NCBI RefSeq assembly: GCF_013266755.1
Contig: NZ_JABRWJ010000005.1
Location: 310,001 to 374,000 of the forward strand
DNA: 64,000 nucleotides
Direction of reading: 5' to 3'
Source of the DNA: Pseudaquabacterium terrae
Lineage (GTDB): Bacteria; Pseudomonadota; Gammaproteobacteria; Burkholderiales; Burkholderiaceae_C
The notes beneath the pieces are model-generated. The model was not told where the DNA came from. It saw nothing but the letters and a program-made list of their open reading frames with translations, and searched no databases. The stretch's first letter is position 1, and each line of letters starts with the position of its first letter. Positions 18,146-35,611 of the stretch are shown here, piece by piece. Made by a program: the position numbers and the translations under genes.

Positions 18146-19925
18146 TCTGAAGGACCGCGAGGGCGCGATCGGGCGCGGCACCGCGGCGGGAGTCCTGTTC
18201 GAGGAAGCGGTCGAAGGGCTCGCCCTCAGCGCCAGCGCGCGCCTGGCGGCGATGCGAAGCTTTCTGCGCCAGCTCTATGGCCATGCGGACTACTGCGTGC
18301 TGCTGCTCGGTTTGGACGGCGAGATCATGTGGGAAAACGCCACGGCGACGAGATTCCTCGCCGCCGAGTTCGATACGCTGCAGGGCAGGCTGTTCGGCGA
18401 ACTGCTGGGCCCCGATCCGCGCCGCTACGAGAACGTGATGGGCCTGAACCGGCTCCTGAGCGGCGCGCTGACATCGCTCAGGCACGAGGCCGAGTTGCAC
18501 AACCCGCGCGGCGAGGAGCGGGTCTTCGAGTGGTGGCACACGCGGGTCGATCCAGGCACGTGGGGGCTGGGCGAGGAGTTCGCATGCCTGACGGTCGGGT
18601 TCGAGATCACGATGCAGAAGGCCGAGGAGCGCCGCCTTGTCGGGCTGGCCGACCGCGACCCGCTGACCGGCCTGTACAACCGCCGCCGCTTCGAGGAGAA
18701 CTTCGAGAAGATCCTGACGCGCGCGTCGCGCTACAACCACGGCGTGGCACTGCTGTATTTCGACATCGACAACTTCAAGCTGATCAACGATCTGAGCGGC
18801 CACAAGGTCGGCGACGAGATCATCCAGAAGGTCTCGCAGGTGCTCAAGGAATCGATCCGCGCGACCGACCTGCCGGTGCGGCAGGGCGGCGACGAGTTCG
18901 CCGTCGTGATGGACGAGGTCGACATCGATGTCGTGCATGCCGCGGTCGCCCAGTTCAGCGAGCGCCTGAGCAACGTGCGCTTTCGCCGCAACGACCGCCT
19001 GAACAGCATCTCGTGCAGCATCGGCGTGGCGCTCTACCCGGAGCATGGCTCGACGGTGGGCCAATTGATGGCCAATGCCGACATGGCGATGTACCGCGCC
19101 AAGTCCGAAAGCCGCTCGAGCACGAACTGGGTGATCTACGACCCGTCCTTCACCGACCTGCAGATGCTGTCCGAGCAGGTGAAGTGGAAGGACCGGCTGC
19201 AGACCGCGCTGCGCGAGGAGCGGCTGCTGCTGTTCTATCAACCGATCCAGCAGCTCAAGGACGGCAGGATCACCCACTGCGAAGCGCTGATGCGCATGAT
19301 CGGCGAGGACGGGCATCTCGTGCTGCCCGGCGCGTTCATCGCGCACGCCGAGCACACCGGGCTGATCAACCAGCTCGATCGCAGGGGCGTCGACATCGCG
19401 CTGATGCACATGAGCCAGATGCTCGTGCAGGGCCGCAAACCGCGCGTCTCGGTCAACGTGTCGACCAAGACCTTGCAGGCCGGCGGCTTTTGCGAGTTCC
19501 TGCAGCAGCGGCTGCGCGACAGCAACGTACCGGGCGAGCTGCTGACGATCGAGATCACCGAGACGGCGGCGATCGAGGGCATCGAGAAGATGGCCGAGCT
19601 GCTGCATCGCATCAGCGCATTGGGCTGCCAGTTCAGTCTCGACGACTTCGGCGCCGGCTTCTCGTCGTGGCTCAACCTGCGCAAGCTGCCGATCAGCTTT
19701 CTGAAGATCGACGGCAGCTTCGTGCGCCATGTCACCGACAGTCCCGACGATCCGCTGTTCGTGCGGGCCATCAACGAGGTCTCGCAGGGCCTGAACATCA
19801 AAACCGTCGCCGAATGCGTCGAGGACCGCCAGACCTTGAACACCTTGAAGTCGCTCGGCGTGGACTACGTGCAGGGCTTCCTGATCGGCCGGCCGATGCA
19901 GCGGCTGAGCGACATCTTCAAGTAG
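18102..19925 (+). CDS. PAS-like sensor GGDEF-EAL protein (c-di-GMP cyclase/phosphodiesterase)
   Basis: A 607-residue cytoplasmic protein without membrane segments. Residues about 55-180 look like a PAS-type sensor. A GGDEF domain follows with an intact active site (GGDEF, 262-266) and an RxxD inhibitory site (253-256) five residues upstream, so diguanylate cyclase activity with product inhibition is plausible. The C-terminal EAL domain has EALMR (394-398) and the catalytic DDFGAGFSSW and KIDGSFV stretches, so phosphodiesterase activity is also possible. The start (ATG 18102, weak GAAGG upstream) lies 44 nt inside the nitrilase gene. The 3' end overlaps the convergent VOC gene by 8 nt. Confidence 0.92.
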   Translation: MLNASLPTSPTDSIDLKDREGAIGRGTAAGVLFEEAVEGLALSASARLAAMRSFLRQLYGHADYCVLLLGLDGEIMWENATATRFLAAEFDTLQGRLFGELLGPDPRRYENVMGLNRLLSGALTSLRHEAELHNPRGEERVFEWWHTRVDPGTWGLGEEFACLTVGFEITMQKAEERRLVGLADRDPLTGLYNRRRFEENFEKILTRASRYNHGVALLYFDIDNFKLINDLSGHKVGDEIIQKVSQVLKESIRATDLPVRQGGDEFAVVMDEVDIDVVHAAVAQFSERLSNVRFRRNDRLNSISCSIGVALYPEHGSTVGQLMANADMAMYRAKSESRSSTNWVIYDPSFTDLQMLSEQVKWKDRLQTALREERLLLFYQPIQQLKDGRITHCEALMRMIGEDGHLVLPGAFIAHAEHTGLINQLDRRGVDIALMHMSQMLVQGRKPRVSVNVSTKTLQAGGFCEFLQQRLRDSNVPGELLTIEITETAAIEGIEKMAELLHRISALGCQFSLDDFGAGFSSWLNLRKLPISFLKIDGSFVRHVTDSPDDPLFVRAINEVSQGLNIKTVAECVEDRQTLNTLKSLGVDYVQGFLIGRPMQRLSDIFK

Positions 19926-20313
19926 TCAGCGCATCTGCCAACTCCTCGCTGGCCTCGAAGTCCAGTTCCACCTTCGCGCCGTTCGGATCGTGGCTGAACA
20001 GCTGCCATGTGCCGGCGCCGGCCTGTCGTCTCAGGTCGTACGGAATGGCGCGCTCGTCGAAGCGTGCCCGGATGGCCCGCAGGCCCCGGGCCGTGAAGGC
20101 CATGTGGTCGATCACGCCTGCGCGCGTGGGCGGCAGCGGGCGACCGAAGTAGAGGTGCAGCACGGCCTGCGGGCCCTCGCCGTACAGCCAGGCGCCGGCA
20201 AAGCCCAGGTCCGGCCGCGCACCGACCTTCAGGCCGAGCACGCCGACGTAGTAGTCCAGCGTCTTGGCCTCGTCCTCGGCGATGACGGTGAAGTGGTTCA
20301 TCCCGACAATCAT
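19918..20313 (-). CDS. VOC family (glyoxalase/dioxygenase fold) protein
   Basis: A 131-residue vicinal-oxygen-chelate protein with GMNHFTVIAEDEAKTLDYYV at the start and the second half-site DHMAFTARG and DPNGAKVELDF. Two paired beta-alpha-beta-beta-beta modules are expected, with metal ligands His7 and a Glu near residue 118. The fold serves glyoxalases, ring-cleavage dioxygenases and epimerases; the reaction here is unknown. It is the last gene of the long reverse-strand catabolic run, 31 nt after the SRPBCC-oxidoreductase fusion. ATG 20313 follows an AAGGAG element. Confidence 0.87.
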   Translation of the reverse strand: MIVGMNHFTVIAEDEAKTLDYYVGVLGLKVGARPDLGFAGAWLYGEGPQAVLHLYFGRPLPPTRAGVIDHMAFTARGLRAIRARFDERAIPYDLRRQAGAGTWQLFSHDPNGAKVELDFEASEELADALTT

Positions 20314-20344: not shown

Positions 20345-21835
20345 TCAGGCGCGCAGCACCAGCGCGCCGACGGTGCGGCGCGACTCCAGCCGCGCGTGCG
20401 CTTCGGCGGCCGCCTCGAGCGCATGAGTCTCGATCGGCGGCACTTTCAGCGCGCCGGTGTCGATGGCGGCCCACAGGCGCTCGGCGCGCTCGACGAGGGC
20501 CTCGCGGCTGGCGATGTAGTGAAACAGCACCGGGCGCGAGAACGTCAGCGACTTCTGCACCAGCCACTCCGGCGAGATCGGCGCCAGCGGTCCGCTGGCC
20601 TGGCCCAGGCTGATCCAGTGGCCGCAGCGCGCCAGCGCGGCATGGTTCTCTTCCCGCGCCGCTTCGCCGAGGCCGTCGACGATCACTTCGGCGCCGTCGG
20701 GCCAGGCGCCGTGCAGCGCCTGGGCAAAGCGGTGCTCGGGGGTGACGATGACTTCTTCGCAGCCGTGCTCGCGCGCCACGCGCGCCTTCTCGTCGCTCGA
20801 CACGGTGCCGATCACGCGCGCCCCGAGTTGCCGCGCCCACGCGCACAGCAGCAGGCCGACGCCGCCGGCCGCCGCGTGCACCAGCAATCGCATGCCGGGG
20901 CGCACACGGGCCAGGTCGCGCAGCACGACGTCGGCGGTCAGGCCCTTCAGCAGGACCGACGCGGCCACCGTCTCGTCGATGCCGGGCGGCAGCCGCAGCA
21001 CCGACACGGCAGGCACGCATCGCAGGTCCGTGTAGGCACCGGGTGCCGCGGCGACATAGGCCACGCGATCGCCGGGCAGCAGGCCCAGCGCACCCTCCCC
21101 CGCATCGAGCACGGTGCCGGCGGCCTCCAGTCCCGGCACGCCGGGCAGCGGCAGCGCCTGCGGAATCCAGCCCCGGCGCAGGTAGACATCGAAGAAATTG
21201 ACGCCGATTGCGCGCTGCCGGATGCGTACCTCGCCCGCCTGCGGCGCGGCGCACTCGGCGGCCTCCGCTCGCAGCTCGCCGGCCTCGCCGTAGCGTCGCA
21301 CGATGATCTGCCGCGACGGCAGCGGCAGCGCGCGCGGCAGCGGGGTTCCGGCCGCATGCCGGCCCGACGCCGACGGGGCGGGACGCAGGTCGCCGCCCTG
21401 TCGCAGGTGCCGGCGCAGGTTCTCGAAACCCGCCTCGTACACCTGGGTCGCGACCATCTCGCGCAGCGCCCGTTCCTCGCCGGGCGGCGTCGCGAAGGTC
21501 GATTCCCAGTGCCAGAACGTGCGGTTGCCGTCGGTCACCGGCTTGAGCGTCAGCGTCGCGACGTAACGCTGCAAAGGCACGGTGGCCTCGACGATGCAAT
21601 AGGTGCTGCGGTGCTCGCGGTCCGACAGCGCCAGCAGCTGCTCGCGGATGCGGTTGCCGTCCTTCAGCGTGAAGCTGCGTACGCAGCCCACCTGGTCGCT
21701 GCGTTCGCCGCCCTCGATGCGGCTGGCCTCGACCACGCCGTGCCACTGGTCGTGGCTGTTGAAGTCACGCAGCACCGCCCACACGCGCTCGATCGGCGCG
21801 TCGATGACCGTGGAGCGAACGACCTTCTGCAGCAT
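20345..21835 (-). CDS. SRPBCC domain fused to a zinc-free quinone oxidoreductase
   Basis: A 496-residue two-domain protein. Residues 1 to about 150 form an SRPBCC (START/Bet v1-like) ligand-binding domain with DAPIERVWAVLRDF and LKPVTDGNRTFWHWES. Residues about 175-496 form a medium-chain reductase of the quinone-oxidoreductase type (IGVNFFDVYLRRGW, PGLEAAGTVLDAGEG, HAAAGGVGLLLCAWA) that lacks catalytic-zinc ligands. The SRPBCC half is clearly similar to the separate SRPBCC protein encoded 18 nt upstream. Such reductases use NADPH on quinones or enones; the fused domain may present a hydrophobic substrate (inference). The two domains are in one uninterrupted frame. Confidence 0.88.
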   Translation of the reverse strand: MLQKVVRSTVIDAPIERVWAVLRDFNSHDQWHGVVEASRIEGGERSDQVGCVRSFTLKDGNRIREQLLALSDREHRSTYCIVEATVPLQRYVATLTLKPVTDGNRTFWHWESTFATPPGEERALREMVATQVYEAGFENLRRHLRQGGDLRPAPSASGRHAAGTPLPRALPLPSRQIIVRRYGEAGELRAEAAECAAPQAGEVRIRQRAIGVNFFDVYLRRGWIPQALPLPGVPGLEAAGTVLDAGEGALGLLPGDRVAYVAAAPGAYTDLRCVPAVSVLRLPPGIDETVAASVLLKGLTADVVLRDLARVRPGMRLLVHAAAGGVGLLLCAWARQLGARVIGTVSSDEKARVAREHGCEEVIVTPEHRFAQALHGAWPDGAEVIVDGLGEAAREENHAALARCGHWISLGQASGPLAPISPEWLVQKSLTFSRPVLFHYIASREALVERAERLWAAIDTGALKVPPIETHALEAAAEAHARLESRRTVGALVLRA

Positions 21836-21853: not shown

Positions 21854-22324
21854 TCAGGCCCGGCCGGCCACGCGCCAGGCGGCGGCGCCGCCGGCGAACT
21901 GCTTCTTCAGCGCATCGAAGCCGGCCTGGAAGACGCCCTGGCCGATCAACTCCGCCAGCGCGCTCTCGCGCGACGGATCGCAGTCGAACTCGGCGCTCCA
22001 CTCGGCAAAGCAGCGGTTGCCGTCGGTCACCGGCGTGAGCTTCAGCGTGGCGGTGTAGTCGGCCACGCCCATCGGGCTCTCGAGGATCTCGTAGGTGCAG
22101 CTGTAGTCGTAGTCGGACAGCGCAAGCAGTCGCTCGCGGATCAGGCCGCCGTCGCGAGTGTGGAAGTGCCGGATGCAGCCGATGCGATCACTCGGCTCAC
22201 CGTTCTCGATGCGGCTGTCGGCAATGCCCGGGTGCCACTGCGGCAACGCATTGAAATCGCGGATGCGCGACCACACCGAATCACCGCTGGCCTCGATCAC
22301 GCTGGAAACGTAGACGCGGATCAC
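21854..22324 (-). CDS. SRPBCC family protein
   Basis: A 156-residue stand-alone SRPBCC (polyketide cyclase/Bet v1-like) protein with VSSVIEASGDSVWSRIRDFN, LPQWHPGIADS and LKLTPVTDGNRCFAEWSAEF. It is homologous to the N-terminal domain of the following fusion gene. The start is GTG at 22324 with AAGGAG upstream inside the end of the flotillin gene (6 nt gap). Ligand and reaction are unknown; domains of this fold bind hydrophobic small molecules. Confidence 0.83.
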   Translation of the reverse strand: MIRVYVSSVIEASGDSVWSRIRDFNALPQWHPGIADSRIENGEPSDRIGCIRHFHTRDGGLIRERLLALSDYDYSCTYEILESPMGVADYTATLKLTPVTDGNRCFAEWSAEFDCDPSRESALAELIGQGVFQAGFDALKKQFAGGAAAWRVAGRA

Positions 22325-22330
22325 GCAATG

Positions 22331-24031
22331 TCACTCCTTGGCGCGTGTGGTCGTCGGCGCCGGTGGCAACGCGGCAGCGCCGCCGGTCGCACCGTTGACC
22401 AACTGGTGGATGTCGCCGCCTGCCAAGCCGATCTCGCGCAGCAGCTGGTCGACGATCGGCGCCTGCGCGCGGAAGCGCAATGCCGAGTTGACGACGCTGT
22501 CGGAGAAGCTCGCATGGCTGCCGTCGGCACCGTTCGTGACCCCGCCGCCGCCCAGCCCGTCCACGTGCAGGATCTTGATGCCCTCGATGCGCTCCATCGG
22601 CCGCACGGCCTCGCGGATGATGGCCTCGGCCTTCTCGACCAGCTTCAGCCGCAGCACCGACGCGCGCGCCTCCGGCGACAGCACGTTCTGCGCCTCGTTC
22701 ATCAGGCGCAGCGCCTCGGCCTCGATCTCGGCCCGCACGCGCACCGCCAGCGCCTTGATCTTGTCGGCATCGGCATCGGCTTCGGCCTGCGCGCGGATCG
22801 CCGCGCCGCGGTCGTCGCTGGCGTCCTTCTCGGCGCGTGCCGCCGATGTCAGGCGCAAGGCCTCGCGCTCCGCCGACTGCGCGGCGCCGATCAGATCGAT
22901 GGCCTTGCGCCGTTCCGCGGCCTCGACGTCACGCGCGGTGAACACCTTCTCCTCGGCGGACACGGCTTCGGCGCGCGCCTTGTCGGCCGCCGCCTGCGCC
23001 AGCGACTGCACCTCGCTCTCGCGCGCGACGGCGATCGCGCGCTGCTGCTCGGCCAGCTCCATCGCCTGCCGGCGCTCGATCTCGGCGGCCTGGATCGTGC
23101 GTTCCTTGGCGATGCGTTCAGCCTCGGTGCTCTGCTCCGAACGGATGCGCGCGGTGTCGATCGTCTGCTTGGCCGTGATCTGCGCGTGCTCGGCGTCCTG
23201 CTCGCGCTGCGCGCGCTCGGTGGCCACCTCGGCGCGCTGGCGGGCGCGGGCGATCTCGACCTCGCGCTGCTGCTCGAGGCGCGCGTACTCGCTGTCGCGG
23301 TCGATCTCGAGCGAGAGCTTCTCGGCTTCGAGGTTCTTGTTGCGGATGGCCACCAGCGTGTCCTGCTCGACATCGTTGCGCTGCTTCTTGCGGCGCTCGA
23401 TCTGCTCGGTCAGGCGCGTCAGGCCCTCGGCGTCGAAGGCGTTGCTGGGATTGAAGAACTCCATGCCGGTCTGGTCCAGCTGCGTCAGCGACGCCGCCTC
23501 CAGCTCCAGCCCGTTCATCGTCAGGTCGCCGGCCACCGCCTCGCGCACGCGGCGAACATAGCTGCCGCGCTGCTCGTGCAGCTGCTCCATCGTCATCTCG
23601 GCCGCCGCGGTGCGCAGCGCGTCGACGAACTTGCCTTCGACCAGCTCCTTCAGCTGCTCGGGCTCCAGCGTGCGCAGGCCCAGCGTCTGCGCCGCCGCGG
23701 CCACCGCCTCGGGCTGCGCGGCGACGCGCACGTAGAACTCGGCGATGACGTCCACGCGCATGCGGTCCTTCGTGATCAGCGCCTTGTCGCGGCCGCGGCT
23801 GACCTCCAGCCGCAGCGTGTTCATGTTGACCGGGATCACGTCGTGCACGATCGGCAGCACGAAGGCTCCGCCGTCGAGCACCACCTTCTGGCCGCCGAGT
23901 CCCGTGCGCACGAACGCGCGCTCCTTGCTGCTGCGCAGGTACAGCCAGTGCAGCAGCCAGACGGCGATGGCGACGACGATCGCGACGACGAGCAGGCCGA
24001 GGAGGAAGCTGCCGAATTGGGCGCCGGTCAT
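22331..24031 (-). CDS. Flotillin (SPFH domain) family protein
   Basis: A 566-residue flotillin. It begins with one membrane segment (LLGLLVVAIVVAIAVWLLHW, residues about 10-29), followed by the SPFH domain (residues about 35-210, with VVLDGGAFVLPIVHDVIPVN and VEGKFVDALRTAAAEMT). A long Glu/Ala/Arg-rich coiled-coil stalk (about 220-470) and a Gly-rich C-terminal segment complete it. Flotillins form cage-like assemblies on ordered membrane domains and scaffold membrane proteins. No NfeD-type partner gene is adjacent, although flotillins often have one. ATG 24031 has AGGAG at good spacing. Its place inside a catabolic transporter operon is unusual. Confidence 0.9.
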   Translation of the reverse strand: MTGAQFGSFLLGLLVVAIVVAIAVWLLHWLYLRSSKERAFVRTGLGGQKVVLDGGAFVLPIVHDVIPVNMNTLRLEVSRGRDKALITKDRMRVDVIAEFYVRVAAQPEAVAAAAQTLGLRTLEPEQLKELVEGKFVDALRTAAAEMTMEQLHEQRGSYVRRVREAVAGDLTMNGLELEAASLTQLDQTGMEFFNPSNAFDAEGLTRLTEQIERRKKQRNDVEQDTLVAIRNKNLEAEKLSLEIDRDSEYARLEQQREVEIARARQRAEVATERAQREQDAEHAQITAKQTIDTARIRSEQSTEAERIAKERTIQAAEIERRQAMELAEQQRAIAVARESEVQSLAQAAADKARAEAVSAEEKVFTARDVEAAERRKAIDLIGAAQSAEREALRLTSAARAEKDASDDRGAAIRAQAEADADADKIKALAVRVRAEIEAEALRLMNEAQNVLSPEARASVLRLKLVEKAEAIIREAVRPMERIEGIKILHVDGLGGGGVTNGADGSHASFSDSVVNSALRFRAQAPIVDQLLREIGLAGGDIHQLVNGATGGAAALPPAPTTTRAKE

Positions 24032-24041
24032 GGCGGATCTC

Positions 24042-24872
24042 CTAACGGGTCATCTCGATGAACTGCCGCGTGGTCGCGGTCAGCGCGGTTTCGGTGGGCA
24101 GGCGTTCCATCGAGCTGGCGCCGTAGAAGCCGTCGATGGTCGGGCACTGGTTCAGGATGAACTGCGCATCGGCCGGCGTCGCGATCGGGCCGCCGTGGCA
24201 CAGCACCAGCACCTGCGGATTCACCGCGCGCGCAGCCGCCGCCCAGGCGCGGATGGGTTCGACGCAGTCGGTGAGCGTCAGCGCTGTGCCGGCGCCGATG
24301 GCGCCCCCGGTGGTCAGGCCCAGGTGGCAGACCACGATGTCGGCACCGGCCGCGGCCATCGTGCGCGCCTCGGCCTCGTTGAACACGTAGGGCGTGGTCA
24401 GCAGGTCCAGCGCGTGGGCGCGTTCGATCAGCTCCACCTCGAGGCCGTAGCCCATGCCGGTCTCCTCGAGGTTGGCGCGGAAGGTGCCGTCGATCAGGCC
24501 GACCGTCGGGAAGTTCTGCACGCCCGAGAAGCCAAGCTCGATCAGCTCGCGCAGGAAGCGGTCGCGCACCATGAACGGGTCGGTGCCGTTGACGCCGGCC
24601 AGCACCGGCGTGTGCTTCACGACCGGCAGCACCTCGCGCGCCATCTCGAGCACGATGTCGTTCGCGTTGCCGTAGGCCAGCAGCCCGGCCAGCGAACCGC
24701 GGCCGGCCATGCGGTAGCGGCCGGAGTTGTAGATCACGATCAGGTCGATGCCGCCCGCTTCCTCGCACTTGGCCGACAGGCCGGTGCCGGCGCCACCGCC
24801 GACGATCGGCCGGCCCGCAGCCACCTTGGCGCGCAGGCGCGCGAGCAGCACGTCTCTAGCGATGCGTGGCAT
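24042..24872 (-). CDS. TIM-barrel protein of the phosphoenolpyruvate hydrolase-like family (Tm-1 C-terminal type)
   Basis: A 276-residue TIM-barrel protein (PF09370-type) with [53 protein letters not shown] and [11 protein letters not shown]. This family forms the C-terminal half of the plant Tm-1 virus-resistance protein, whose N-terminal half is UPF0261. Here the UPF0261 domain is encoded by the immediately upstream gene, which overlaps this one by 17 nt, so the two proteins very probably work together. The bacterial biochemical function is not established. Confidence 0.87.
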
Positions 24873-27156
24873 GGGGACGCTCCAGCGGACGAACCGTGTG
24901 CGGCGCGACCTCGCGCCAGGCGGCGACCAGCGCCAGCGCGAAGGCCTCGTCGTTGATGTGGTGCGGCAGCTTCAGCAGTTGGCGGTCGCTGCCGCCGCGG
25001 AACTGCTGCTCGATGGCCGTGAAGAGCGCGCGGTCGGCTTCGGGATCATGGAACGGCTGCCCGGGCGCATCGATCGCCGACACGCCGCCCTCGGGGATCA
25101 GGAAGCGCACCGGCCCGCGCATTGCATTGAGCTTGGCCGCCAGGAAGTCGCCAATGCGGCGGCACTCGTCGGGCGTCGTGCGCATCAAGGTGACGTTGGG
25201 GTTGTGGCGGACCAGGCGCCGGCCGCGAAAGCGCTCGGGCACGGTGTCCCAGCCGCCGAAGTTCACCATGTCGAGCGCGCCGCAGGACCCCACGTAGGGC
25301 AGCGCATGGCGCGCGAAGACGTCGAGCCGGCCGGGGCCGGCCGACAGCACGCCGCCGACGATCTGATCGGCGATCTCGGTGGTCGAGACATCGATCACCC
25401 CGGCCAGCAGGCCGGAGTCGGCCAGCTTCTCCATCGACTGCCCGCCGACGCCGGTGGCATGGAAGACCAGCGCATCGACCTCGTCGCCCAGCGCCTTCGT
25501 CACCGCCTGCACGCAAGGCGTGGTAACGCCGAACATCGTCAGCCCGATCGCCGGCTTCGTCGCCTGCGACTGCGGCGGCGGGTGCGCGATCATCCCGGCG
25601 AGCGCATGGGCCGCATTGGCGAGCACCTTCTCGCTGATGCGGTTGATGCCCTGCACGTCGGTGACCGAATACATCATGCAGATGTCGCTCGGGCCGACGT
25701 AGGGGCGCGTGTCGCCGCTGGCCATCGTCGACACCATCACCTTGGGTATGCCGACCGGCAGCGCGCGCATGCCCTGGGTGGCCAGCGTGGTGCCGCCGGA
25801 GCCGCCCGCGGAGATCAAGCCGCCCAGGTCGCGCCGCGTCGCGATGAAGCGCTCGAAGGCCAGTGCCATCGCCGTGACCGCGCTGCCGCGGTCGCTGCTG
25901 AAGACGGCTGCCTCGCCCTCCGGATGGTGGCGCGCCACCTCGCGCGGGTGCACGCTGGCGGGCGACGGCTTGCCCGAGGTCGCCAGATCGACCGTGACGA
26001 CGCGCAGGCCCAGCTTGTCCAGGCACTGGCGCAGGTAGAACAGCTCGCGCGCCTTGGTGTCGAAGGTGCCGGCGACATAGGCCGCGCGCGCGCTGCTGGC
26101 GGCGACGGGGAAGTCGAACACCTGTGCCGACGATGAGGCCGGGATGTCGGCCCTTTCGGCGGGGCGGGGCATCGCCGCCTGATCCGCTGGGCCGGCCTGG
26201 ACGCTCATTTCGCGCGGCAGGTCCGTGACCGGTCCGGACACGCCGCCGGTGTTCCAGCGGTTGAAGCCGCGCACGCTGCGCGGCGCCAGCTCGTCCTGCA
26301 CGGTGGCGCCGTCGCCATGTGCGCGCCGGACGGTGAAGACCCGCACGGCACCGTCGTCGCTTGCCGCGTCGGCCGCCACGTCGTCGCCCGCCTCGCCTTC
26401 CTCGTCGGCCGAGCGCACGCCGAGCAGCCGCTCCTGCAGCGGCCGGTCGGCGGCGAGCTGGCGTGCCGGCATCTCGTGCGCGATGCGGCCATTCACCATC
26501 ACCCCGATGCGGTCGGCGACGTCCATCGCCACGCCCATGTTCTGCTCGATCAGCAGCACCGCGATCTCGCCCTGCGCGGCCAGCGTGCGCAGCGCATCGG
26601 CCACCTGCTGCACGATCACCGGCGCCAGGCCTTCGGTGGGCTCGTCCATCACCAGCAGCGTCGGGTTCAGCAGCAGCGCGCGGCCGATCGCCAGCATCTG
26701 CTGCTCACCGCCGGACAGCTGCGCGCCGCCATGGCCGCGGCGTTCGGCCAGGCGCGGGAACAGCGTATAGACGCGCTCGGTGTCGCGCTTCTTCGCCGCC
26801 ACCAGGCGCAGCGTTTCGTCGACGCTCAGCGAGGGCCAGATGCGCCGACCCTGGGGCACATAGGCGATGCCCCGGCGCGTGATGCGGTGCGCGGCCAAGC
26901 CCAGGATCTCCTCGCCCGCCAGCTTCACGCTGCCGCGCGCCGGCACCAGGCCGGTGATCGCGTTGCACAGCGTCGTCTTGCCCATGCCGTTGCGGCCGAC
27001 GATGCCGAAGACGCCGCGATCCAGCACCAGGCTCACACCCTGCAACGCGTGGGCCCGGCCGTAGAACACGTCCAGGCCCTCGATGGCCAGCACCGGCCCT
27101 CGACGCGCGCCCGCCGCGCCGCGTTCGACGGCTGCGCCGTGCGTGCGCCCGGCCAT
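24856..27156 (-). CDS. LivF-type ABC ATPase fused to a UPF0261 (Tm-1-like ATP-binding) domain
   Basis: A 766-residue fusion in one uninterrupted frame. Residues about 21-247 are a LivF ATPase (Walker A GRNGMGKT 54-61, [10 protein letters not shown], signature LSGGEQQ, Walker [12 protein letters not shown]). A linker of about 100 residues follows. From about 350 to the end is UPF0261: [47 protein letters not shown] and [11 protein letters not shown]. The start at 27156 overlaps the LivG stop by one base (TGATG). An internal ATG at 26208 (MSVQAG) could also give a separate UPF0261 protein. The gene overlaps the TIM-barrel gene by 17 nt. The linkage suggests the UPF0261 pair acts on the imported compound. 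Confidence 0.88.
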
Positions 27157-27974
27157 CAGTGGCGGCTCCCCATGTAGATCGCCTGCACCTGCGGATCGGA
27201 CTCGATCTCGGCCGGCGTGCCGGCCCGCAACACGCGGCCGTTGTGCATCACCGTGACGTGTTCGACGACCCGCAGCGCGATGTCGAGGTCGTGCTCGATC
27301 AGCACGAAGCTCATGTGCGCCGGCAGCGAGCGCAGCAGCAGCACCAGCTCGCGCCGTTCGGCCGGCGACAGGCCCGCGGCCGGCTCGTCGAACAGGATCA
27401 GGCGCGGCGCGCCGGCCAGCGCCATGCCGATCTCGAGCTGGCGCTGCTGGCCGTGCGCCAGGTTCGCGACCAGCTCGTCGGCCAGGTGCGTGAGCCGCGC
27501 GCGCTCGAGCAGGTCCTGCGTCATGCGGCGCGACGCGTGCGACGGGCGTGGCCGCCACAGGCTGAAGCGCCCACTGGCGACGCCGCGCACCGCCAGGAAC
27601 AGGTTGTCGCGCACCGACAGGCCGCGAAACAGCAGCGACGACTGGTAAGTGCGGCGCAGCCCCTTGCGGATGCGCTCGTGCGGCGGCAGCTCGGTGATGT
27701 CCTCGCCGAAGAAATGAATGCGCCCCGCGGTGGGCGGGAAGTCGCCGGTGATCGCATTGAACAGCGTCGTCTTCCCGGCCCCGTTCGAGCCCAGGATGGC
27801 TGCCTTCTGCCCCGCCGCGACGGTCAGCGACACCTCGTCGACGGCGCGCAGCGCGCCGAAGGCCCGCGTCACGCCGTCGAGCACGAGCGCGTCGTTCGAC
27901 GACAGCGGCGCGCGCGCCGACGGCGCCGCCACCGCGGCGCGCCGCAGGGCCGTGGAAGGCATCAACGAAGCCAT
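27156..27974 (-). CDS. livG: Branched-chain amino acid-type ABC transporter ATPase LivG
   Basis: A 272-residue nucleotide-binding subunit with Walker A GSNGAGKT, the variant signature [15 protein letters not shown] characteristic of LivG proteins, Walker [12 protein letters not shown] and switch His in LIEHDLD. A 25-residue low-complexity N-terminal extension precedes the domain. It follows the livK-like gene by 12 nt and overlaps the LivF fusion gene by one base. LivG/LivF pairs energise import of branched-chain amino acids, amides, urea or aromatic acids. Confidence 0.93.
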
Positions 27975-27986: not shown

Positions 27987-29240
27987 TCAGGGGCAGGCCG
28001 GGACGTCGCGCGAGCCGATCTGGAAGTCCTCCTTCTTCATGCCCAGCATCTGCTCGACGCCGTCGACCTTGCTGTGCACCTTGTTGAAGAGGTTGCCCTG
28101 TGCGTCCTTGACGACCTCGGTCACGAAGGTGGTGCCGATGGCCTGCCGGTTGCCGTCCAGCCGGACGTCGCCGTTGGGGGTCTTCAGCGTCATCTTCGAC
28201 AAGGCCTCGCGCAGCTTGGCCTGGTTGTTGGACAGGTCGCCGTTGACGGCAGCCAGGCCGTCCAGCGCCGCCTTCATGTTGACGTAGTAGACATAGGCGA
28301 ACAGGCTCGGGCTCGGGAAGCCGCCCTGCGCCACCGGATAGGTCTTCTGGTAGTCGGCGACGAAGGCCTTCCAGTCGGCCCCGTCGTAGGCATCGGCCAG
28401 CGGCCCGGCCGACAGCGTGCCGACGAGCGACTCGCGGCGCTTGCCGCGGTAGTTCAGCACGTCCTGGCTGACGGTGATCGAGCCGCCCATGATCGGCTTG
28501 TCGCCGCCCGAGGCCTCGTACTGGTTCAGGAAGTTCACCGCATCGGCGCCGCCCAGCACCACCAGCAGCGCGTCGACGTCGTTCGGGATCTTGGCGATCA
28601 CCGACGAGTAGTCCTTGCCGCCCAGCGGCACCCACGCCTTCGCAGGCACCTTGCCGCCCGCCCTGCAGTACTCGGACATGAAGCCCTGCACCTGCGAGTA
28701 GGGGAACGCATAGTCCTCGGCGATCACCATCGTGCGCTTGTAGCCCTTGGCCATCGCGGCCTTGCCGAGGCCCACCATCCACTGCGCGCCCTCGGTGTTG
28801 AAGCGGAAGAAGTTGCTGCTGGGGTTGACCAGCGTGGTGGCCTGCGCGCCCGATCCGCCGTTGATGAAGGTCACCTGCGGCTGCGTCTTCGAGTAGTCCT
28901 TGACGGCGATGCCCTCGCCGCCCGACAGCGGGCCGACCATGATGTCGACCTTGTCCTGCTCGACCAGCTTGCGCGTCGCATTCACGGCGACATCGGGCTT
29001 GGCGTCCGACGAGGCCTTGATGATCTCGATCTTGCGGCCGGCGACCACGCCGCCGCGCTGCTTCACGGCCAGTTCGGCGCCGCGCATGCCGTCGGCGCCG
29101 CCGGCGGCGAACGGCCCTTCCAGCGTCGCCAGCAGGCCGATCTTCACCGGCTGCCCCTGGCTCCAGGCCGCGCCGCCCACCGCCGCCATGGCCGCGGCGC
29201 CGAGGATCGATCGAATCCAGATTCGCTTTGTCAGGTTCAC
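27987..29240 (-). CDS. Periplasmic substrate-binding protein, LivK type
   Basis: A 417-residue type-I periplasmic binding protein with a signal peptide (cleavage near AWSQG, about residue 23) and the LivK-like opening [20 protein letters not shown]. The start is GTG 29240 with AAGGAG at good spacing. This subfamily serves many compounds besides leucine, so the ligand is open. The enzymes encoded upstream (amidohydrolases, FAHD) suggest a cyclic or amide-containing organic acid (inference). Confidence 0.9.
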
Positions 29241-29251: not shown

Positions 29252-30373
29252 TCAGGGGGAATGGGCGCCTGGGTTGGACGCGAAGCGCGAGCGCAGCTTC
29301 GCCCACAGACCGAGCAGGCCGTCGGGGGAAAACAGCACGATGGCGAGGAACACGACGCCGATGACGAGGTTGAAGCGTTCGCGGTCGATCAGGTCGATCG
29401 CGAAGGTCTGCAGCAGCACGAAGACGATGGCGCCGAGGAAGGCGCCAATCGGGTGCCGCATGCCGCCGAGCACGGCGATGACGAGGATGTTGATCAGCCA
29501 GGAGGTGTGCACCGACCCCGGCGTGATCAGGCCGTTGTACCAGACCAGCAGCACGCCGCCGACCGCGGCGATCAGGCCCGCCAGCGCGTAGGCGGCGACG
29601 CGGTGCGCGACGACGTGGAAGCCTAAGGCGGCCATGCGCCGCGGGTTGTCGCGGATGCCCTGCAGCGCGATGCCGAAGGGCGTGCGCACGGTCCAGCGCA
29701 CCAGCGCATAACCCGCGAGTGCACAGGCCAGCGACAGGAAGTAGAACGGCAGCGGGCTGCGCCAGTCGATGCCCAGCACCTTCGGCGGATACACCTCGCG
29801 CAGGCCCTGGAAGCCGTTGAAGAGCGTGTAGTTCTGCAGCACCAGGTAGTAGAACGCCACGCCGATGGCCAGCGTGATCATGATCGTGTAGATACCCTCG
29901 GTGCGCACCGACAGCCAGCCGATCAGCGTTGCTGCGGCAGTCGCGATCAGCAGCGTGGCCGGAATCGCGGCCCACCACGGCCACTGATGGCTGATGTCGG
30001 CGCCGCTGCTGGTGCCGAGGATCGCGAGCGAATAACCCGCAATGCCGGCGACCGTCATCTGCGCCAGCGACACCATGCCGCCGTAGCCGCCGAGGAAGGT
30101 CAGCGACAGCGCGACGAGGCCGAGCACCAGCGACTGCCCAGCGACCTGGAAGGTGATGAAGGGCGTCGCGACGAAGGGGAACACGAGCAGCGCAAGCAGC
30201 ACCAGCACGCGGCGGGGATTGAACACGCGGCGCCACGACTCGAGCCGGCTCGCGGGTGCGACCGGAGGCAACTGGACCGCAGCAAGCGGCACACGCGGCA
30301 TGCCAGGCCGCGACCGCGCCGCCGACGCGGCCGCGCCGCTGTTCATCGCCTTGCGCCAGTCGGCCGCGGCCAT
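29252..30373 (-). CDS. livM: ABC transporter permease LivM
   Basis: A 373-residue inner-membrane permease with about nine hydrophobic segments. It has the LivM landmark [17 protein letters not shown], the EAA-like region [20 protein letters not shown] and a C-terminal [13 protein letters not shown]. An N-terminal cytoplasmic extension of about 50 residues is present. It starts 1 nt after the LivH stop, consistent with coupled translation. Confidence 0.93.
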
Positions 30374-30374: not shown

Positions 30375-31322
30375 TCAAGCTGCTTTCCCCATGATGCCGC
30401 GCGGCCGGAACGCCAGCACCAGGATCAGGATGATGAAGGTGAAGACCACGCTGTAGGTCGGCGCGTAGGCCAGGCCGTAGGTCTCCGCCAGCCCCAGGAT
30501 CGCCGCGCCGATGGCCGCACCGATGACGCTGCCCATGCCGCCGACGATCACCACGATCAGCGACGCCAGCAGCAGGCGCGTGTCCTCGCCCGGCACCATC
30601 GACAGCTCCACCGCGCCGATCACGCCGCCAAAGCCCGCGAGCCCCGCGCCCAGCATGAAGGTGATCGCGAACACCAGGTTCACGTTGACGCCGGCCGCCG
30701 CCAGCATGCCGCGGTCGTCGACGCCGGCGCGAATCATCATGCCCACGCGGGTGCGGTTCAGAAGCCACCACAGCCCGACGCCGATGGCCAGGCCGAAGCC
30801 GAGCAGGCTGAGTCGGTAGGCCGAATAGGCCTTGATCAGCGGGATGTCGCGGATCGGTCCCTGCAGCCAGGCCGGCGCTTCCATCTGGTGTACCTGGCCG
30901 GTGAAGATCCACATCAGCACGTCGGCGATGACGATGGACAGGCCGATCGTCACCATCGTCTGCCGCAGGTCCTCGCCCTGCATGTGGCGCAGGATCAGCC
31001 ACTGGATCAGCAGGCCGGCGATGGCCGCCGCCGCGAAGCCCGCCGCCAGCGCCAGGATCCACCAGCCGGTCTTCTCGGCGACGATGAATGCGACGTAGCC
31101 GCCCAGCAGGTACAGCGAGCCGTGCGCCAGGTTGACGTTGCGCATCAGCCCGAAGACGAGCGTGAAGCCGCTGGCCACGATGAAGTACAGCGAGGCCAGT
31201 GTCAGGCCGTTCAGCATCGTGATCAGGTAGAGGCGCGGATTGTCGAACAGCGCCCAGGCCGAGAAGGCCAGCAGCGGTCCGCCGACCAGCAGCCACGTGA
31301 GGATCGCAGCGCGAGACGTCAT
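30375..31322 (-). CDS. livH: ABC transporter permease LivH
   Basis: A 315-residue inner-membrane permease with the LivH hallmarks LYFIVASGFTLVFGLMRNVN, AHGSLYLLGGYVAF, and VVIVGGMGSVIGAAIGAAIL in the C-terminal half. The coupling region is TRVGMMIRAGVDDRGMLAA. The start overlaps the stop of the upstream amidohydrolase as ATGA (31319-31322), tying transport to catabolism. Confidence 0.93.
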   Translation of the reverse strand: MTSRAAILTWLLVGGPLLAFSAWALFDNPRLYLITMLNGLTLASLYFIVASGFTLVFGLMRNVNLAHGSLYLLGGYVAFIVAEKTGWWILALAAGFAAAAIAGLLIQWLILRHMQGEDLRQTMVTIGLSIVIADVLMWIFTGQVHQMEAPAWLQGPIRDIPLIKAYSAYRLSLLGFGLAIGVGLWWLLNRTRVGMMIRAGVDDRGMLAAAGVNVNLVFAITFMLGAGLAGFGGVIGAVELSMVPGEDTRLLLASLIVVIVGGMGSVIGAAIGAAILGLAETYGLAYAPTYSVVFTFIILILVLAFRPRGIMGKAA

Positions 31323-32602
31323 GCCGCACGACTCCAGCGCCGTTCGTCAGCGATCTCCGGCGACTTGGCGAAGACGCCGTCCTTCATCACCGCCAGGATG
31401 CGCTTCGGGTCGCGCAGGATCGCGATGTTGGCCAGCGGGTCGCCATCCACCAGCAGCAGGTCGGCCAGGTGACCTTCCTTCACCTGCCCGAGCTCGTGCG
31501 CGCGCATCATGATCTGGCCGCCGTAGAGGGTGGCGCTGCGGATGGCCTCGGCCGGCGTGAAGCCGAGGTACTTGACGAAGAACTCGAGGTCGCGCGCGTT
31601 CTGGCAGTGCGGCGTGAACGCGAAACCGTAGTCGCCGCCGGGCAGCACGCGCACGCCGCGCCGATGCATGGCTTTGAGCGACTCGATGGCCGCGTCCCAT
31701 TCGCGCTGGTAGCCCATCGCCACCGCCTTGGCGTTCGTGATGCCCCAGGGCTCGGCCTCGTGCAGCATCGCGTACAGGATGGCGATGCCGGGCGCGACGA
31801 AGACGCGGTCCTTCGCCGCCTCCAGCATGTCCAGCGTCTCCTCGTCGGTGTAGCTGGCGTGGTAGATCACGTCGATGCCATGGCGCAGCGCCTGCTTCAC
31901 CGACGCCGCCGAGCGCGCATGCGCGGTGCCGCGCTTGCCGCGAACGCGCACCTCGTCCATCGCCGCGGCCACCTCGGCGTCGCTCATCCAGGTCGTCTCG
32001 GCGGGCGACTGCGGCGTGAAGTTGTCGCCCGACAGGTTCAGCTTGATCGAGTCGACGCCGTACTTGAGGAACAGGCGCACGACCTTGCGCATCTCGTCGG
32101 CCGAGTTGACGTTGACGCCGAAGCTGAACTCGGGAAACGGCAGGTGCGGCAGCGTCTCGTCGCCCAGGCCGCCGGGCACCGTGATCTCCTGGCTGGCCGC
32201 GAGGTAGCGCGGACCGGGGATCTGCCCGGCATTGATCGCGTTGCGGATCACGACGTCGAGCCGCGGCTTCGCGCAGGCTGCGCCGACGCAGGAGGTGAAG
32301 CCGGCTTCCAGGTAGCGCCGCGCCACCTTGGCGCACCACAGCACGTGCTCCTCCAGCGGCATGCGCTGGATGGCGTCGAGCGTGGCGGCATCGTTCCACG
32401 AGAAGTGCGTGTGCGCCTCGCACATGCCGGGCATCAGCGTCGCGCCGGCGCCGTCGATCACGGTCGCGCCGGCCGGCGCCGCGGCGGCCAGCGAGCGCCC
32501 GACCGAGCGGATGCGCTCGTCCTGCACCAGCACGCTGCCGGCATAGGGCATGGCGCCACTGCCGTCGAGGATGCGGACATTGGTGAACAGCACCGTGGCC
32601 AT
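31319..32602 (-). CDS. Amidohydrolase family protein (imidazolonepropionase-like), copy 1
   Basis: A 427-residue metal-dependent hydrolase of the COG1228 type. The metal-binding HxH is in EAHTHFSW, followed by a Lys in SIKLNLSG, His in TAHARS and YHAS, and the Asp of GGDYGFAF, the expected order of ligands around the TIM barrel. A beta-sandwich is formed by N- and C-terminal parts (DGSGAMPYAG, GHLADLLLVDGDPL). It is closely similar to the next upstream gene, with long identical runs such as TSCVGAACAKPRLDVVIRNA. The family hydrolyses cyclic amides, dipeptides or esters; the substrate is unknown. It overlaps livH by 4 nt. Confidence 0.9.
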   Translation of the reverse strand: MATVLFTNVRILDGSGAMPYAGSVLVQDERIRSVGRSLAAAAPAGATVIDGAGATLMPGMCEAHTHFSWNDAATLDAIQRMPLEEHVLWCAKVARRYLEAGFTSCVGAACAKPRLDVVIRNAINAGQIPGPRYLAASQEITVPGGLGDETLPHLPFPEFSFGVNVNSADEMRKVVRLFLKYGVDSIKLNLSGDNFTPQSPAETTWMSDAEVAAAMDEVRVRGKRGTAHARSAASVKQALRHGIDVIYHASYTDEETLDMLEAAKDRVFVAPGIAILYAMLHEAEPWGITNAKAVAMGYQREWDAAIESLKAMHRRGVRVLPGGDYGFAFTPHCQNARDLEFFVKYLGFTPAEAIRSATLYGGQIMMRAHELGQVKEGHLADLLLVDGDPLANIAILRDPKRILAVMKDGVFAKSPEIADERRWSRAA

Positions 32603-32615: not shown

Positions 32616-33905
32616 TCAGGCCGCCCAGCGGGTCGTGCGCGCCGCGCGCACGGGCGGTGCGCGGTGGAACTCGCCGTCCTTCATGACGGCCAGGATGCGG
32701 GCCTTGTCCTGCAGCACCGTGATGTCGGCCAACGGATCGCCGTCGATCAGCAGGATGTCGGCCAGGCAGCCCTCGCGCAGGTAGCCCAGTTCCTTGCCGC
32801 GGCCCATCATCGGGCCGCCCCACGCGGTGGCCGACAGCAGGGCCTCCATCGTGCTCATGCCCACGTATTTCACGAAGTATTCGAGGTCCTTCGCATTGGT
32901 GCCATGCGGCGTCCAGGCGAAGCCGTAGTCGCCGCCAGGCAGGATGCGCACGCCGCGCCGGCGCAGCGCCTTCATCGTCTCGACGGCCGCCTCCAGCTCG
33001 CGGTGGTAGCCCATCTTGCGGGTCACCTCGGGCGTCAGGCCCCACGCGGACGCGTGGTGGCAGGTGTTGATCAGCCAGGCCAGCCCGGGCGCGATGAAGT
33101 GCGCCATCTTGTGCGCTTCCAGCAGGTCCAGCGCTTCCTCGTCGGCGAAGCTCGCGTGGTAGATCACCTCGATGCCGTGGCGCACGCACTGCTTGATCGA
33201 CCGCGTCGAGCGCGCATGCGCCGCGACGCGTTTGCCCCAGGCCTTGGCCTCCTCGACGCAGGTGGCGATCTCGGCCTCGGTGAACTGGCTCATCTCGCTG
33301 GGCATGCCGGTGATCGATTCACCGGACAGGTTGATCTTCAGCGAGTCGACGCCGTACTTCGCGAAGATGCGCACGCACTTGCGCATCTCCTCGCAGCCGC
33401 TGACCACGGCGCCGAACGCGAACTCGGGCTGCGGCAGGTGCGGCTGCGTGGTGTCGCCCAAGCCCCCGGGCACGGTGATCTCCTGGCTCGCCGCCAGGTA
33501 GCGCGGGCCGACGATGGTGCCGTCGTTGATCGCGTTGCGGATCACGACGTCCAGCCGCGGCTTGGCGCAGGCCGCGCCGACACAGGAGGTCCAGCCCATG
33601 TCGAGGTAGATCTTCGCCACCTCGGCACACCACAGGATGTGCTCCTCCGGCGGCATGCGCTGGATCGCGTCGAGGCTGGGCTGGTTGTTCCACGAGAAGT
33701 GCGTGTGGGCCTCGACCATGCCCGGCATCAGAAAGGCGCCAGCACCATCGACCACGGTCGCGCCGGCCACCGGCGCGCTGCGCAGCCCGGCACCGCTCTT
33801 CACGACGTGCGTGATGCGGTTGCCCTGCACCAGCACCTCGCCATTGAACGGCCTGTCGCCGCCGCCGTCGAAGACCCGCACGTTGGTGAAGAGCACGTTG
33901 GCCAT
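32616..33905 (-). CDS. Amidohydrolase family protein (imidazolonepropionase-like), copy 2
   Basis: A 429-residue paralogue of the preceding amidohydrolase, with the same order of ligands: EAHTHFSW, SLKINLSG, AAHARS, YHAS and GGDYGFAW. I chose ATG 33905 (MANVLFTNVRVFDGGG) because it matches the N-terminus of copy 1 and follows GGAGATCC; the frame stays open upstream only as shadow of the alpha/beta hydrolase gene. The two copies may act on different stereoisomers or successive amide bonds (inference). Confidence 0.9.
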   Translation of the reverse strand: MANVLFTNVRVFDGGGDRPFNGEVLVQGNRITHVVKSGAGLRSAPVAGATVVDGAGAFLMPGMVEAHTHFSWNNQPSLDAIQRMPPEEHILWCAEVAKIYLDMGWTSCVGAACAKPRLDVVIRNAINDGTIVGPRYLAASQEITVPGGLGDTTQPHLPQPEFAFGAVVSGCEEMRKCVRIFAKYGVDSLKINLSGESITGMPSEMSQFTEAEIATCVEEAKAWGKRVAAHARSTRSIKQCVRHGIEVIYHASFADEEALDLLEAHKMAHFIAPGLAWLINTCHHASAWGLTPEVTRKMGYHRELEAAVETMKALRRRGVRILPGGDYGFAWTPHGTNAKDLEYFVKYVGMSTMEALLSATAWGGPMMGRGKELGYLREGCLADILLIDGDPLADITVLQDKARILAVMKDGEFHRAPPVRAARTTRWAA

Positions 33906-33916: not shown

Positions 33917-34714
33917 TCAGGAACGCACCGAGGCCAGGAAGTCGCGCAGCTCGCGAGCGCACTCGTCGGGGCGCTCGATCGGCGTCCAGTGACCGCAGCG
34001 ATTGAGCACCACCGTGCGCACACCGGCGCTGCCGCCGAGGCGTTCGGCCATCGCCCGCACGGCCTGCGGCGGCGCGACGGTGTCCTCGTCGCCGGTGACC
34101 AGCAGCACCGGCGCGCGAATCTCCTCGACTGCGGCGGCGGGCGCGTCGGCCAGGGCCTCGCAGCTGCGCGCGTAGCCGTCCGGGTCCTGCCGCATCAGGC
34201 TCTCGCGCACGAAGGCCGCGACCGCCGGATGGCGGCGGCGCGAATCGGCCGACGTGGCGCCGTTCATCAAGGTCTGCGCGATGTCCTGCATGCCGGACGG
34301 CCCCTCGCTGCGCGCCTTGCCGGCCCGGGTCCGGATCGCCGCGCGCGCCGCTTCGGCCGGGCTGATCAGCGGTCCGAACAGCGCGAGGCAACGCACCAGC
34401 TTCGGCGTCTCGACCGCCAGGTGCTGGCAGACGATCGTGCCCATCGAGTGACCCACCAGGTGCGCCCGCGTGATGCCCAGCCTCGCGCACACCGTGCGCA
34501 CGCATTCCGCGAAACGCGCGATGCTCAGCACGCCGCTGACGGCCGACGACCGTGCGCTGCCGGGCAGGTCGAGCCGCAGCACGCGCTGGCCGGCCAGCGC
34601 AGGCATCAGCGCAGTGAACGAGTTGCTGCTGCCACCGAGGCCATGCACGCAGACCACGGCGTCGCCCTCGCCTTCATCCTCGACCGCGACCTTGTCGACC
34701 CAGTGCAGCGTCAT
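33917..34714 (-). CDS. Alpha/beta hydrolase
   Basis: A 265-residue alpha/beta-fold hydrolase. The nucleophile elbow is GHSMG with Ser90; the acid is in TGDEDTVAP (Asp209 or Asp211) and the base is His242 in GHWTPIERPDE. The oxyanion region is CVHGLGGSSNSF. Sequence type is close to 3-oxoadipate enol-lactonases and ring-fission product hydrolases, so hydrolysis of an ester, lactone or C-C bond in the pathway is likely. It lies 6 nt downstream of the FAHD gene. Confidence 0.88.
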   Translation of the reverse strand: MTLHWVDKVAVEDEGEGDAVVCVHGLGGSSNSFTALMPALAGQRVLRLDLPGSARSSAVSGVLSIARFAECVRTVCARLGITRAHLVGHSMGTIVCQHLAVETPKLVRCLALFGPLISPAEAARAAIRTRAGKARSEGPSGMQDIAQTLMNGATSADSRRRHPAVAAFVRESLMRQDPDGYARSCEALADAPAAAVEEIRAPVLLVTGDEDTVAPPQAVRAMAERLGGSAGVRTVVLNRCGHWTPIERPDECARELRDFLASVRS

Positions 34715-34720: not shown

Positions 34721-35611
34721 TCACCCGACGTGGTCGAACAGGTTCTCGATCGCACCGATGCCGTCGATCTCGATGCGGAAGCGGTCGCCCGCGACCAGCC
34801 ATTTCGGCGGCTGGAATCCCATGCCGACGCCCGAGGGCGTGCCGGTCGCGATGACGTCGCCGGGGTACAGCGTGATGCCGCGCGAGCAGGTCTCGATCAG
34901 CGTCGGGATGTCGAAGATCATGTCCTTCGTGCGGCCGTCCTGGCGCAGTTCGGGCTCGGCGTTGCGGGCCATCAGCCAGCCGCGCACGCGCGTGTCGCGG
35001 CCGTCGAGCTCGTCGGCGCTGACGATGCACGGGCCCATCGGCAGGAAGGTGTCGAAGCTCTTGCCGAGGTCCCACTGCTGGTGCCGCACCTGCACGTCGC
35101 GCGCGCTGACATCGTTGACCACCGTGTAGCCGAACACGTGGTCGATCGCCCGCGAGCGCGGAATGTCGCGACCGCCGCGGCCGATGACCACCGCCAGCTC
35201 GGACTCATAGTCGATCTGCAGCGTCACCTGCGCGCCCGGCAGGCGCACGGTGTCGTACGGGCCGGCGATGCACTCGCCGAGCTTGGTGAACACGATCGGC
35301 CAGGTGTCCTTCTCGGGCAGGCTGTCGCGGAAGACGGTGGTGGCCAGCTCCTCGGCATGCGCGCGGTAATTGCGGCCGGCGCAGAACACGCTGCGCAGGG
35401 GCCGGGGCAGCGGCGCGCCCAGCGTGACGGCGGCGGTGGGCAGTCGCGCGCCGGAGGGCGGCGGCAGCGGCTCGCCGCGGGCCAGCGCCTGGATCAGCGG
35501 CAGCGCGCCGAGCGCGGGCTGCGCTGCGCCCAAGGGCGTCACTTCGCGGCCGTCGCGTGACAGCAGGCCGACGTGCGGCCGTCCGCCCCAATTCCAGTGG
35601 GCCAAGCGCAT
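34721..35611 (-). CDS. Fumarylacetoacetate hydrolase (FAHD) family protein
   Basis: A 296-residue FAHD-family enzyme with the metal-binding core: FCAGRNYRAHAEE, IDYESELAVVIG (acidic ligands), GYTVVNDVSARD and the C-terminal TGTPSGVGMG. Members hydrolyse fumarylacetoacetate, acylpyruvates or 2-hydroxyhepta-2,4-diene-1,7-dioate-type ring-cleavage products, or act as isomerases or decarboxylases. It is the first gene of the reverse catabolic run and diverges from a TetR-like regulator over an operator-like palindrome. Confidence 0.9.
   Translation of the reverse strand: MRLAHWNWGGRPHVGLLSRDGREVTPLGAAQPALGALPLIQALARGEPLPPPSGARLPTAAVTLGAPLPRPLRSVFCAGRNYRAHAEELATTVFRDSLPEKDTWPIVFTKLGECIAGPYDTVRLPGAQVTLQIDYESELAVVIGRGGRDIPRSRAIDHVFGYTVVNDVSARDVQVRHQQWDLGKSFDTFLPMGPCIVSADELDGRDTRVRGWLMARNAEPELRQDGRTKDMIFDIPTLIETCSRGITLYPGDVIATGTPSGVGMGFQPPKWLVAGDRFRIEIDGIGAIENLFDHVG

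Follow-up and report, generated by a model that had tools for sequence, protein, structure and literature searches.

Why would the ATPase of an importer be translated in one chain with a relative of the plant protein Tm-1, and why would such a chain be encoded close to a flotillin? Both questions are raised by a locus in the stretch analysed here, 64,000 nucleotides (nt) of the Pseudaquabacterium terrae genome (contig NZ_JABRWJ010000005.1, positions 310,001 to 374,000; the window hereafter), where a LivF-type ATPase of an ATP-binding cassette (ABC) importer is joined through a long linker to the two domains of a UPF0261 protein. We propose, with moderate confidence, that the locus specifies a membrane-tethered uptake-and-catabolism complex built on an importer of the HAAT (Liv/Urt) type, in which the enzyme is held on a flexible leash. 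The features on which the argument turns are these:

24856..27156, minus strand: LivF::UPF0261 fusion gene, 766 amino acids (Pfam, fused relatives)
26419..27093, minus strand: LivF-type ATPase part, residues about 22-246 (Pfam, NCBIfam, motif patterns)
26095..26418, minus strand: linker, residues 247-354, predicted disordered (predicted local distance difference test, pLDDT; pN/pS)
26254..26262, minus strand: Asn-Arg-Trp, the window's copy of the [TN]RW motif, residues 299-301
24901..26094, minus strand: Tm-1-like N- and C-terminal domains of UPF0261, residues about 355-752
24042..24872, minus strand: PEP_hydrolase-like TIM barrel (PF09370), a relative of Mll9387 (2p10) and the genome's sole match
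22331..24031, minus strand: flotillin (Flot and Band_7 domains), 566 amino acids, the genome's sole Flot (PF15975) match

The fusion frame runs uninterrupted on the minus strand from 27156 to 24856, 766 codons and a stop, and a Pfam search of its product places ABC_tran at residues 39-174 (E 3e-26), UPF0261 at 359-524 (1.7e-60) and UPF0261_C at 534-750 (1.8e-89). The original prediction, a single 766-codon frame joining a complete LivF to a complete UPF0261, is thus confirmed by frame and domain search alike, and its coordinates and sizes are correct, the genes lying on the minus strand. The UPF0261 part scores 204.5 bits with PF06792 and 299.2 bits with PF23189 (curated cut-off 27 each) and matches the Tm-1 fold. 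As in other HAAT importers, a full LivHMKGF set is present with its ATPase motifs intact; unlike in these, LivF bears a C-terminal enzyme, and its best NCBIfam ABC-family models, the equivalog models UrtE and LivF, are both missed at their curated cut-offs (212.1 bits against 285.8 and 158.5 bits against 441), so that we class it no more narrowly than as a HAAT-type ATPase. The fusion ATG has one base in common with the stop of the LivG gene (TGATG), and at its other end the barrel gene overlaps it by 17 nt in a different frame (24856-24872), as had been predicted. The barrel matches PF09370 at E 2.2e-129 (residues 10-273 of 276 on model positions 3-266 of 267) and Mll9387 (PDB 2p10) over residues 3-272 of 276 at E 9.7e-121, differing from the latter in that its gene overlaps the fusion. 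UPF0261, PF09370 and Flot each match only once in the source genome (8.04 Mb in 56 contigs), in every case within this gene run.

Is the fusion peculiar to this genome? Among the matches listed in a search of 200 same-family genomes, those of 13 genomes, the window's included, span LivF and UPF0261, the 12 others at 59-80% identity; at least seven further genomes match UPF0261 alone. The window and this search contributed 20 loci to a discovery set, to which were added 80 named loci from a GTDB contig scan (the best 80 of at least 589, and hence biased to close relatives). A phylum sample, in which 38 of 398 genomes had a UPF0261 match, gave 50 further regions, and a class sample, in which 13 of 369 genomes had a match (12 of them over the cut-off), gave 10 of its 12 places; four duplicates were dropped from these 160, and all counts refer to the remaining 156. 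The fusion is present at 79 of them, including 13 of the 50 phylum-sample regions, and is spread over Burkholderiales, Bradyrhizobium, Mesorhizobium, Azospirillum, Reyranella, relatives in Rhodobacteraceae and Rhodospirillales, and some Gammaproteobacteria. The case that the original prediction had named against itself, LivF and UPF0261 separate everywhere and joined only in this assembly, does not obtain, as 79 discovery and 19 held-out loci are fused. Walker A, signature and Walker B patterns of the ATPase, and the DTK and HN-type patterns of UPF0261, are found at 79/79 fused loci.

Of 21 genomes from the genus, 6 match UPF0261 at E up to 1e-20. Three of these score as Tm-1-type: the window's; G954, which is fused and has both motif and flotillin; and G955, with a contig of 3043 nt that starts within the linker and is the record already listed as discovery locus L058. 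The matches in G945, G947 and G952 score far under Tm-1-type, and the UPF0261 frame of G945, the one locus inspected among them, has no LivF match; two members of the genus in the family search, G011 and G143, have no UPF0261 match. On a FastTree tree of UPF0261 (156 rows, with long branches among the distant ones) every fused row falls inside one 84-row group, 79 fused and 5 not, with support 96, a pattern that fits a single origin of the fusion followed by few losses. Transfer between classes seems likely, since Burkholderiales rows stand among Alphaproteobacteria, partly on weakly supported branches. The fused operon is also carried by a contig labelled as a Candidatus Rokuibacteriota metagenome-assembled genome (L069; UPF0261 part 75% identical), through misbinning or transfer.

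The flotillin accompanies the fusion: in the discovery set it is present at 74 of the 79 fused loci and at 2 of the 77 unfused ones. Of the five fused loci without it, four are followed by less than 950 nt of contig, and L043 by 4116 nt. The two unfused flotillin loci are L058, cut inside the linker, and L097, in which LivF and UPF0261 occupy different frames, and both read as probable fusions in disguise, as they are the sole unfused rows with the linker motif before UPF0261. At L097 (L097:8902-11224, Mesorhizobium sp. AR07) the frames are split by mutation or sequence error, with the motif still upstream of UPF0261. SRPBCC genes accompany 71/79 fused and 27/77 unfused loci, and the barrel lies in the fetched stretch of 67/79 and 51/77, respectively. 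When non-redundant groups are counted instead (28 of them fused and 56 unfused), the figures are 26 against 33 for the barrel, 25 against 17 for SRPBCC and 25 against 1 for flotillin, the one unfused group being that of L097. LivG, fusion, barrel, flotillin and SRPBCC form a block that recurs across groups; the order of the importer genes varies, with LivHMK together or LivK apart, ahead of LivHM. Fusion and barrel genes overlap at 24 of the 64 loci with measurable spacing. No second LivF-profile gene occurs at any of the 79 fused discovery loci, so that the importer probably works with the fused ATPase. The length of the operon flotillin (in the window Flot 1.2e-34, Band_7 2.6e-15) depends strongly on lineage, 566 amino acids here and 962 in L118 (12093-14981), with Band_7 and Flot kept in both.

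The pairing of UPF0261 with the barrel, which had also been predicted, is supported by unfused loci as well: in non-redundant Tm-1-type unfused groups (profile score >540) the barrel is present in 31/31 and adjacent on the same strand in 28. The Mesorhizobium-type loci have no barrel gene in the fetched stretch. All nine such genomes that were checked (those of 8 fused rows and of L097) encode one at another place, which in G609 and G672 is near a second UPF0261, an unfused one, and inside the stretch fetched for it; the fusion thus does not require a barrel gene next to it. Near one UPF0261 locus, a PF09370 barrel is fused to a sigma-54 activator domain (L083:903-2597), and the barrel may therefore also serve as a sensor. 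Distant-branch UPF0261 genes without barrel (L161, L163, L167) have as neighbours genes for aldehyde dehydrogenase, a LigB-type dioxygenase (L161) or CHMI (L167), together with a tripartite tricarboxylate transporter in the same gene runs, L163 being judged solely by look-alike protein starts.

What joins the two halves is a tether of variable length, 64-163 residues at the 79 fused loci with a median of 87. In the window, residues 247-354 have pLDDT under 50, with ten-residue means of 23-29 over most of the span, and the tether of about 105 residues is accordingly predicted to be disordered. The ratio pN/pS, computed on 12 of the 13 same-family fusions (the most distant row, L043, left out), is 0.28 for the LivF part, 0.28 for the UPF0261 part and 0.63 for linker residues 250-345, which places both parts under equal purifying selection and the linker under weaker constraint. 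Nearly the sole linker feature conserved across classes is [TN]RW, near the middle, which is present at 75 of 79 fused loci (74 strict, one with Q for R) and in 26 of 28 non-redundant groups; in 1000 shuffles it was found at a mean of 0.97 and a maximum of 5 of 79. The residues around it depend on lineage: Burkholderiales have GFNRWNAG, Bradyrhizobium and several others PPTRWS or LPTRWS, and Mesorhizobium LPNRWNVP. A lone anchored motif within a disordered tether is often a docking site, and by this analogy [TN]RW may be one.

These patterns were then confronted with held-out loci, drawn from two further samples after the patterns had been seen: 41 places at E <1e-56 (15 + 26), new to the analysis and excluding more distant ones, to which the locus on a Variovorax paradoxus plasmid and G954 were added; 3 of the 43 were already in the discovery set, leaving 40. 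Nineteen are fused, and flotillin, barrel and SRPBCC are each present at 19/19 and the motif at 18/19. In the 21 unfused loci, three of them with less than 1600 nt downstream, flotillin and motif were each found at 0/21; the barrel is present at 20/21, four of the 21 scoring low as Tm-1-type (305-437). Six unfused loci (L219, L221, L230, L233, L237, L241) keep LivFGHKM and the barrel without flotillin, five of the six with SRPBCC, from which it appears that fusion and flotillin are jointly derived, as one state of an older association of importer, UPF0261, barrel and SRPBCC. The original prediction was right to tie the pair to an importer and incomplete in overlooking the flotillin, the SRPBCC genes and the conserved tether motif.

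Several observations weigh against the proposed complex. The fetched stretch shows no barrel at twelve of the 79 fused loci, in one case (L056) because the contig ends, and L043 (59% identical, from a genome 55% complete) is fused without barrel, flotillin or SRPBCC in its 4116 nt downstream and without motif. The motif is absent from L060, L065 and L067, which have the flotillin, and from held-out L229, whose linker has 206 residues; the GG[ST][GM]G pattern of UPF0261 occurs at just 60 of 79 fused loci; and held-out L220 has an extra LivF-profile gene about 8 kb upstream, outside the operon's Liv genes. Enzyme sets differ among fused operons, amidohydrolase B occurring in 48/79, amidohydrolase A in 31/79 and a molybdenum hydroxylase in others, so that no one substrate fits all. 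Finally, the fused label changes 5 times on the 156-row tree, three changes being forced by well-supported branches, and just 2 times on 145 rows (omitting L058, L097 and rows with less than 3500 nt downstream that lack flotillin), with one independent pair on well-supported branches. With so few changes, the flotillin linkage is probably one event that has since been kept, not a repeated invention, and the locus counts are not independent.

Among other explanations, the one that survives best holds that the fusion merely fixes a 1:1 supply of ATPase and UPF0261, enzyme and importer being independent and the flotillin an operon bystander. LivHMK genes lie beside an unfused UPF0261 in 8 of 31 non-redundant unfused groups and, with LivF too, at 6 of 21 held-out unfused loci, so that the fusion is not needed for the pathway, and the linker is long and fast-evolving. 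This explanation, which we find doubtful, accounts neither for the conserved [TN]RW inside an otherwise free linker nor for the near-perfect tie to flotillin.

MetN and ModC carry C-terminal trans-inhibition domains, and such domains known so far sit near their ATPase. By analogy, UPF0261, with or without the barrel, might sense the imported compound or a metabolite and switch the ATPase; a UPF0261 protein does bind a small aromatic (9mpy), and the barrel family is also joined to a sigma-54 activator (L083). The close placement of those domains contrasts with the roughly 105 predicted-disordered residues that intervene here, and unfused UPF0261 also adjoins genes of catabolic enzymes, which together make a regulatory role unlikely. 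That the internal start ATG 26208 yields a free UPF0261, the fusion not being the functional form, is highly improbable: the ATG noted in the original prediction exists in the window (Met317), but in a 13-fusion alignment the other 12 sequences all lack Met at that column, 6 of 13 linkers are wholly without Met (L033, L036, L037, L039, L041, L042; ATG starts only, GTG and TTG aside), and the conserved motif sits upstream of it. An assembly or sequencing artefact, for which the window offers nothing and the split frames of L097 at most a possible error there, is refuted by the 98 fused loci, 79 of the discovery set and 19 held-out, which come from numerous assemblies, among them single-contig genomes and a plasmid record; it has next to no probability.

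The proposed uptake-and-catabolism complex would draw its remaining parts from the surrounding gene run, which is tightly packed on the minus strand from the FAA_hydrolase gene (35611) to the SRPBCC::quinone-oxidoreductase fusion (20345) and appears to be one operon. The other genes in it and next to it are:

34721..35611, minus strand: FAA_hydrolase-family enzyme (Pfam, NCBIfam)
33917..34714, minus strand: alpha/beta hydrolase, nearest NCBIfam models PcaD-like, below cut-off
32616..33905, minus strand: amidohydrolase B (domain search)
31319..32602, minus strand: amidohydrolase A (domain search)
30375..31322, minus strand: LivH-type permease (domain search)
29252..30373, minus strand: LivM-type permease (domain search)
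27987..29240, minus strand: LivK-type periplasmic binding protein (Peripla_BP_6), GTG start inferred
27156..27974, minus strand: LivG-type ATPase, its stop sharing 1 nt with the fusion start
21854..22324, minus strand: SRPBCC (Polyketide_cyc2) protein, 156 amino acids (domain search)
20345..21835, minus strand: SRPBCC fused to a quinone-oxidoreductase-like dehydrogenase, 496 amino acids (Pfam, NCBIfam)
19918..20313, minus strand: glyoxalase/VOC protein, a VOC gene being next in Variovorax paradoxus as well
35712..36572, plus strand: TetR-type regulator, divergent (domain search)

The SRPBCC::dehydrogenase is the second unusual fusion in the run; the Bradyrhizobium-type locus L118 has its second SRPBCC free-standing (L118:15426-15878). 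In L118 the large subunit of the molybdenum hydroxylase is split into two genes, 17189-18781 and 18806-19804 (MoCoBD_1, MoCoBD_2), a layout that recurs, by gene sizes, in L123, L143, L156 and L085. Past the operon end, on the opposite strand, a carbon-nitrogen hydrolase gene (17240-18145, plus strand) overlaps a GGDEF/EAL gene (18102-19925, plus strand) by 44 nt.

In the scheme proposed here we infer the contacts between the parts, the role of the motif in docking, the substrate class, the chemistry and the coupling of uptake to conversion. As its fold and motifs are intact, the LivF part should still drive import; it would pair with LivG and power transport through LivHM from the binding protein LivK. 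The disordered tether, judging from its length, would hold the UPF0261 enzyme close to the importer on the cytoplasmic side, where the TIM barrel would bind UPF0261 as the fused form does in plants. The flotillin of the same operon may cluster or confine several such complexes in the membrane. Carrying or presenting the hydrophobic ligand may fall to one or two SRPBCC proteins. The substrate is probably an aromatic or similarly hydrophobic plant compound; UPF0261, which probably binds it together with ATP, could activate it on arrival at the cost of ATP, by phosphorylation or a similar step, after which the barrel would act on the activated product and the operon hydrolases, or the molybdenum hydroxylase in the Bradyrhizobium type, would carry out the last steps. 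A more elaborate form of this scheme is offered only tentatively: a substrate-induced metabolon organised by flotillin, in which the importer, by way of a Trp-anchored docking motif in its tether, would place a kinase-like UPF0261 and the barrel at the channel exit, with SRPBCC proteins for capture, so that a hydrophobic plant aromatic would be activated before leaking back.

How does the locus compare with known systems? Plant Tm-1 is described in PMC5028733 as UPF0261 and TIM barrel in one chain, in agreement with the original prediction; the same paper reports the co-evolution of the two and their occurrence in bacteria, archaea, fungi and land plants. Compared with plant Tm-1 and Tm-1-like structures (PDB 3wrw/3wrx/3wry), the window has the barrel as a separate gene and UPF0261 joined to an importer ATPase, with flotillin and SRPBCC genes alongside. 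Binding of tobamovirus replication proteins, a trait of plant Tm-1L, is not expected in a bacterium. The UPF0261 protein Saro_1862 of Novosphingobium aromaticivorans (PDB 9mpy), a 406-amino-acid chain with no ATPase part and a sequence farther from the window's than that of Tm-1, holds bound acetovanillone, a lignin aromatic, and the original statement that the cellular role of bacterial UPF0261 is not known is thus probably out of date. Saro_1862 may correspond to MarK; aromatic kinases of that type would phosphorylate acetovanillone-like phenols at the expense of ATP. The whole operon is already public as a sequence record: the Variovorax paradoxus VAI-C plasmid CP063167 has the identical gene order from FAA hydrolase to VOC, fused and with motif and flotillin, its fusion being annotated merely as 'ABC transporter permease'. 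Among the matches listed from the open-licence literature, where absence weighs little, no paper describes the LivF-UPF0261 fusion, the flotillin link or the tether motif; term searches found the words 'ABC', 'transporter' and 'LivF' absent from PMC5028733 and nothing on UPF0261 in PMC11996625, PMC11837543, PMC13406360, PMC12607616 and PMC12911418.

The chemistry of UPF0261 and PF09370 is barely known despite their wide spread, and plants have the pair fused in Tm-1. Here a compact operon of common soil bacteria links them to a single importer, a single flotillin and a single set of enzymes, so that the substrate can be sought genetically. The bacterial clients of flotillin are disputed, and the locus gives flotillin a specific, testable partner together with a short mutable motif. 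An importer ATPase fused to UPF0261 and, across several groups of bacteria from soil and water, nearly always encoded beside a flotillin suggests a physical link, at the membrane, between uptake and the first step of processing; if this is true, an importer, an enzyme and a flotillin would form a complex from one operon.

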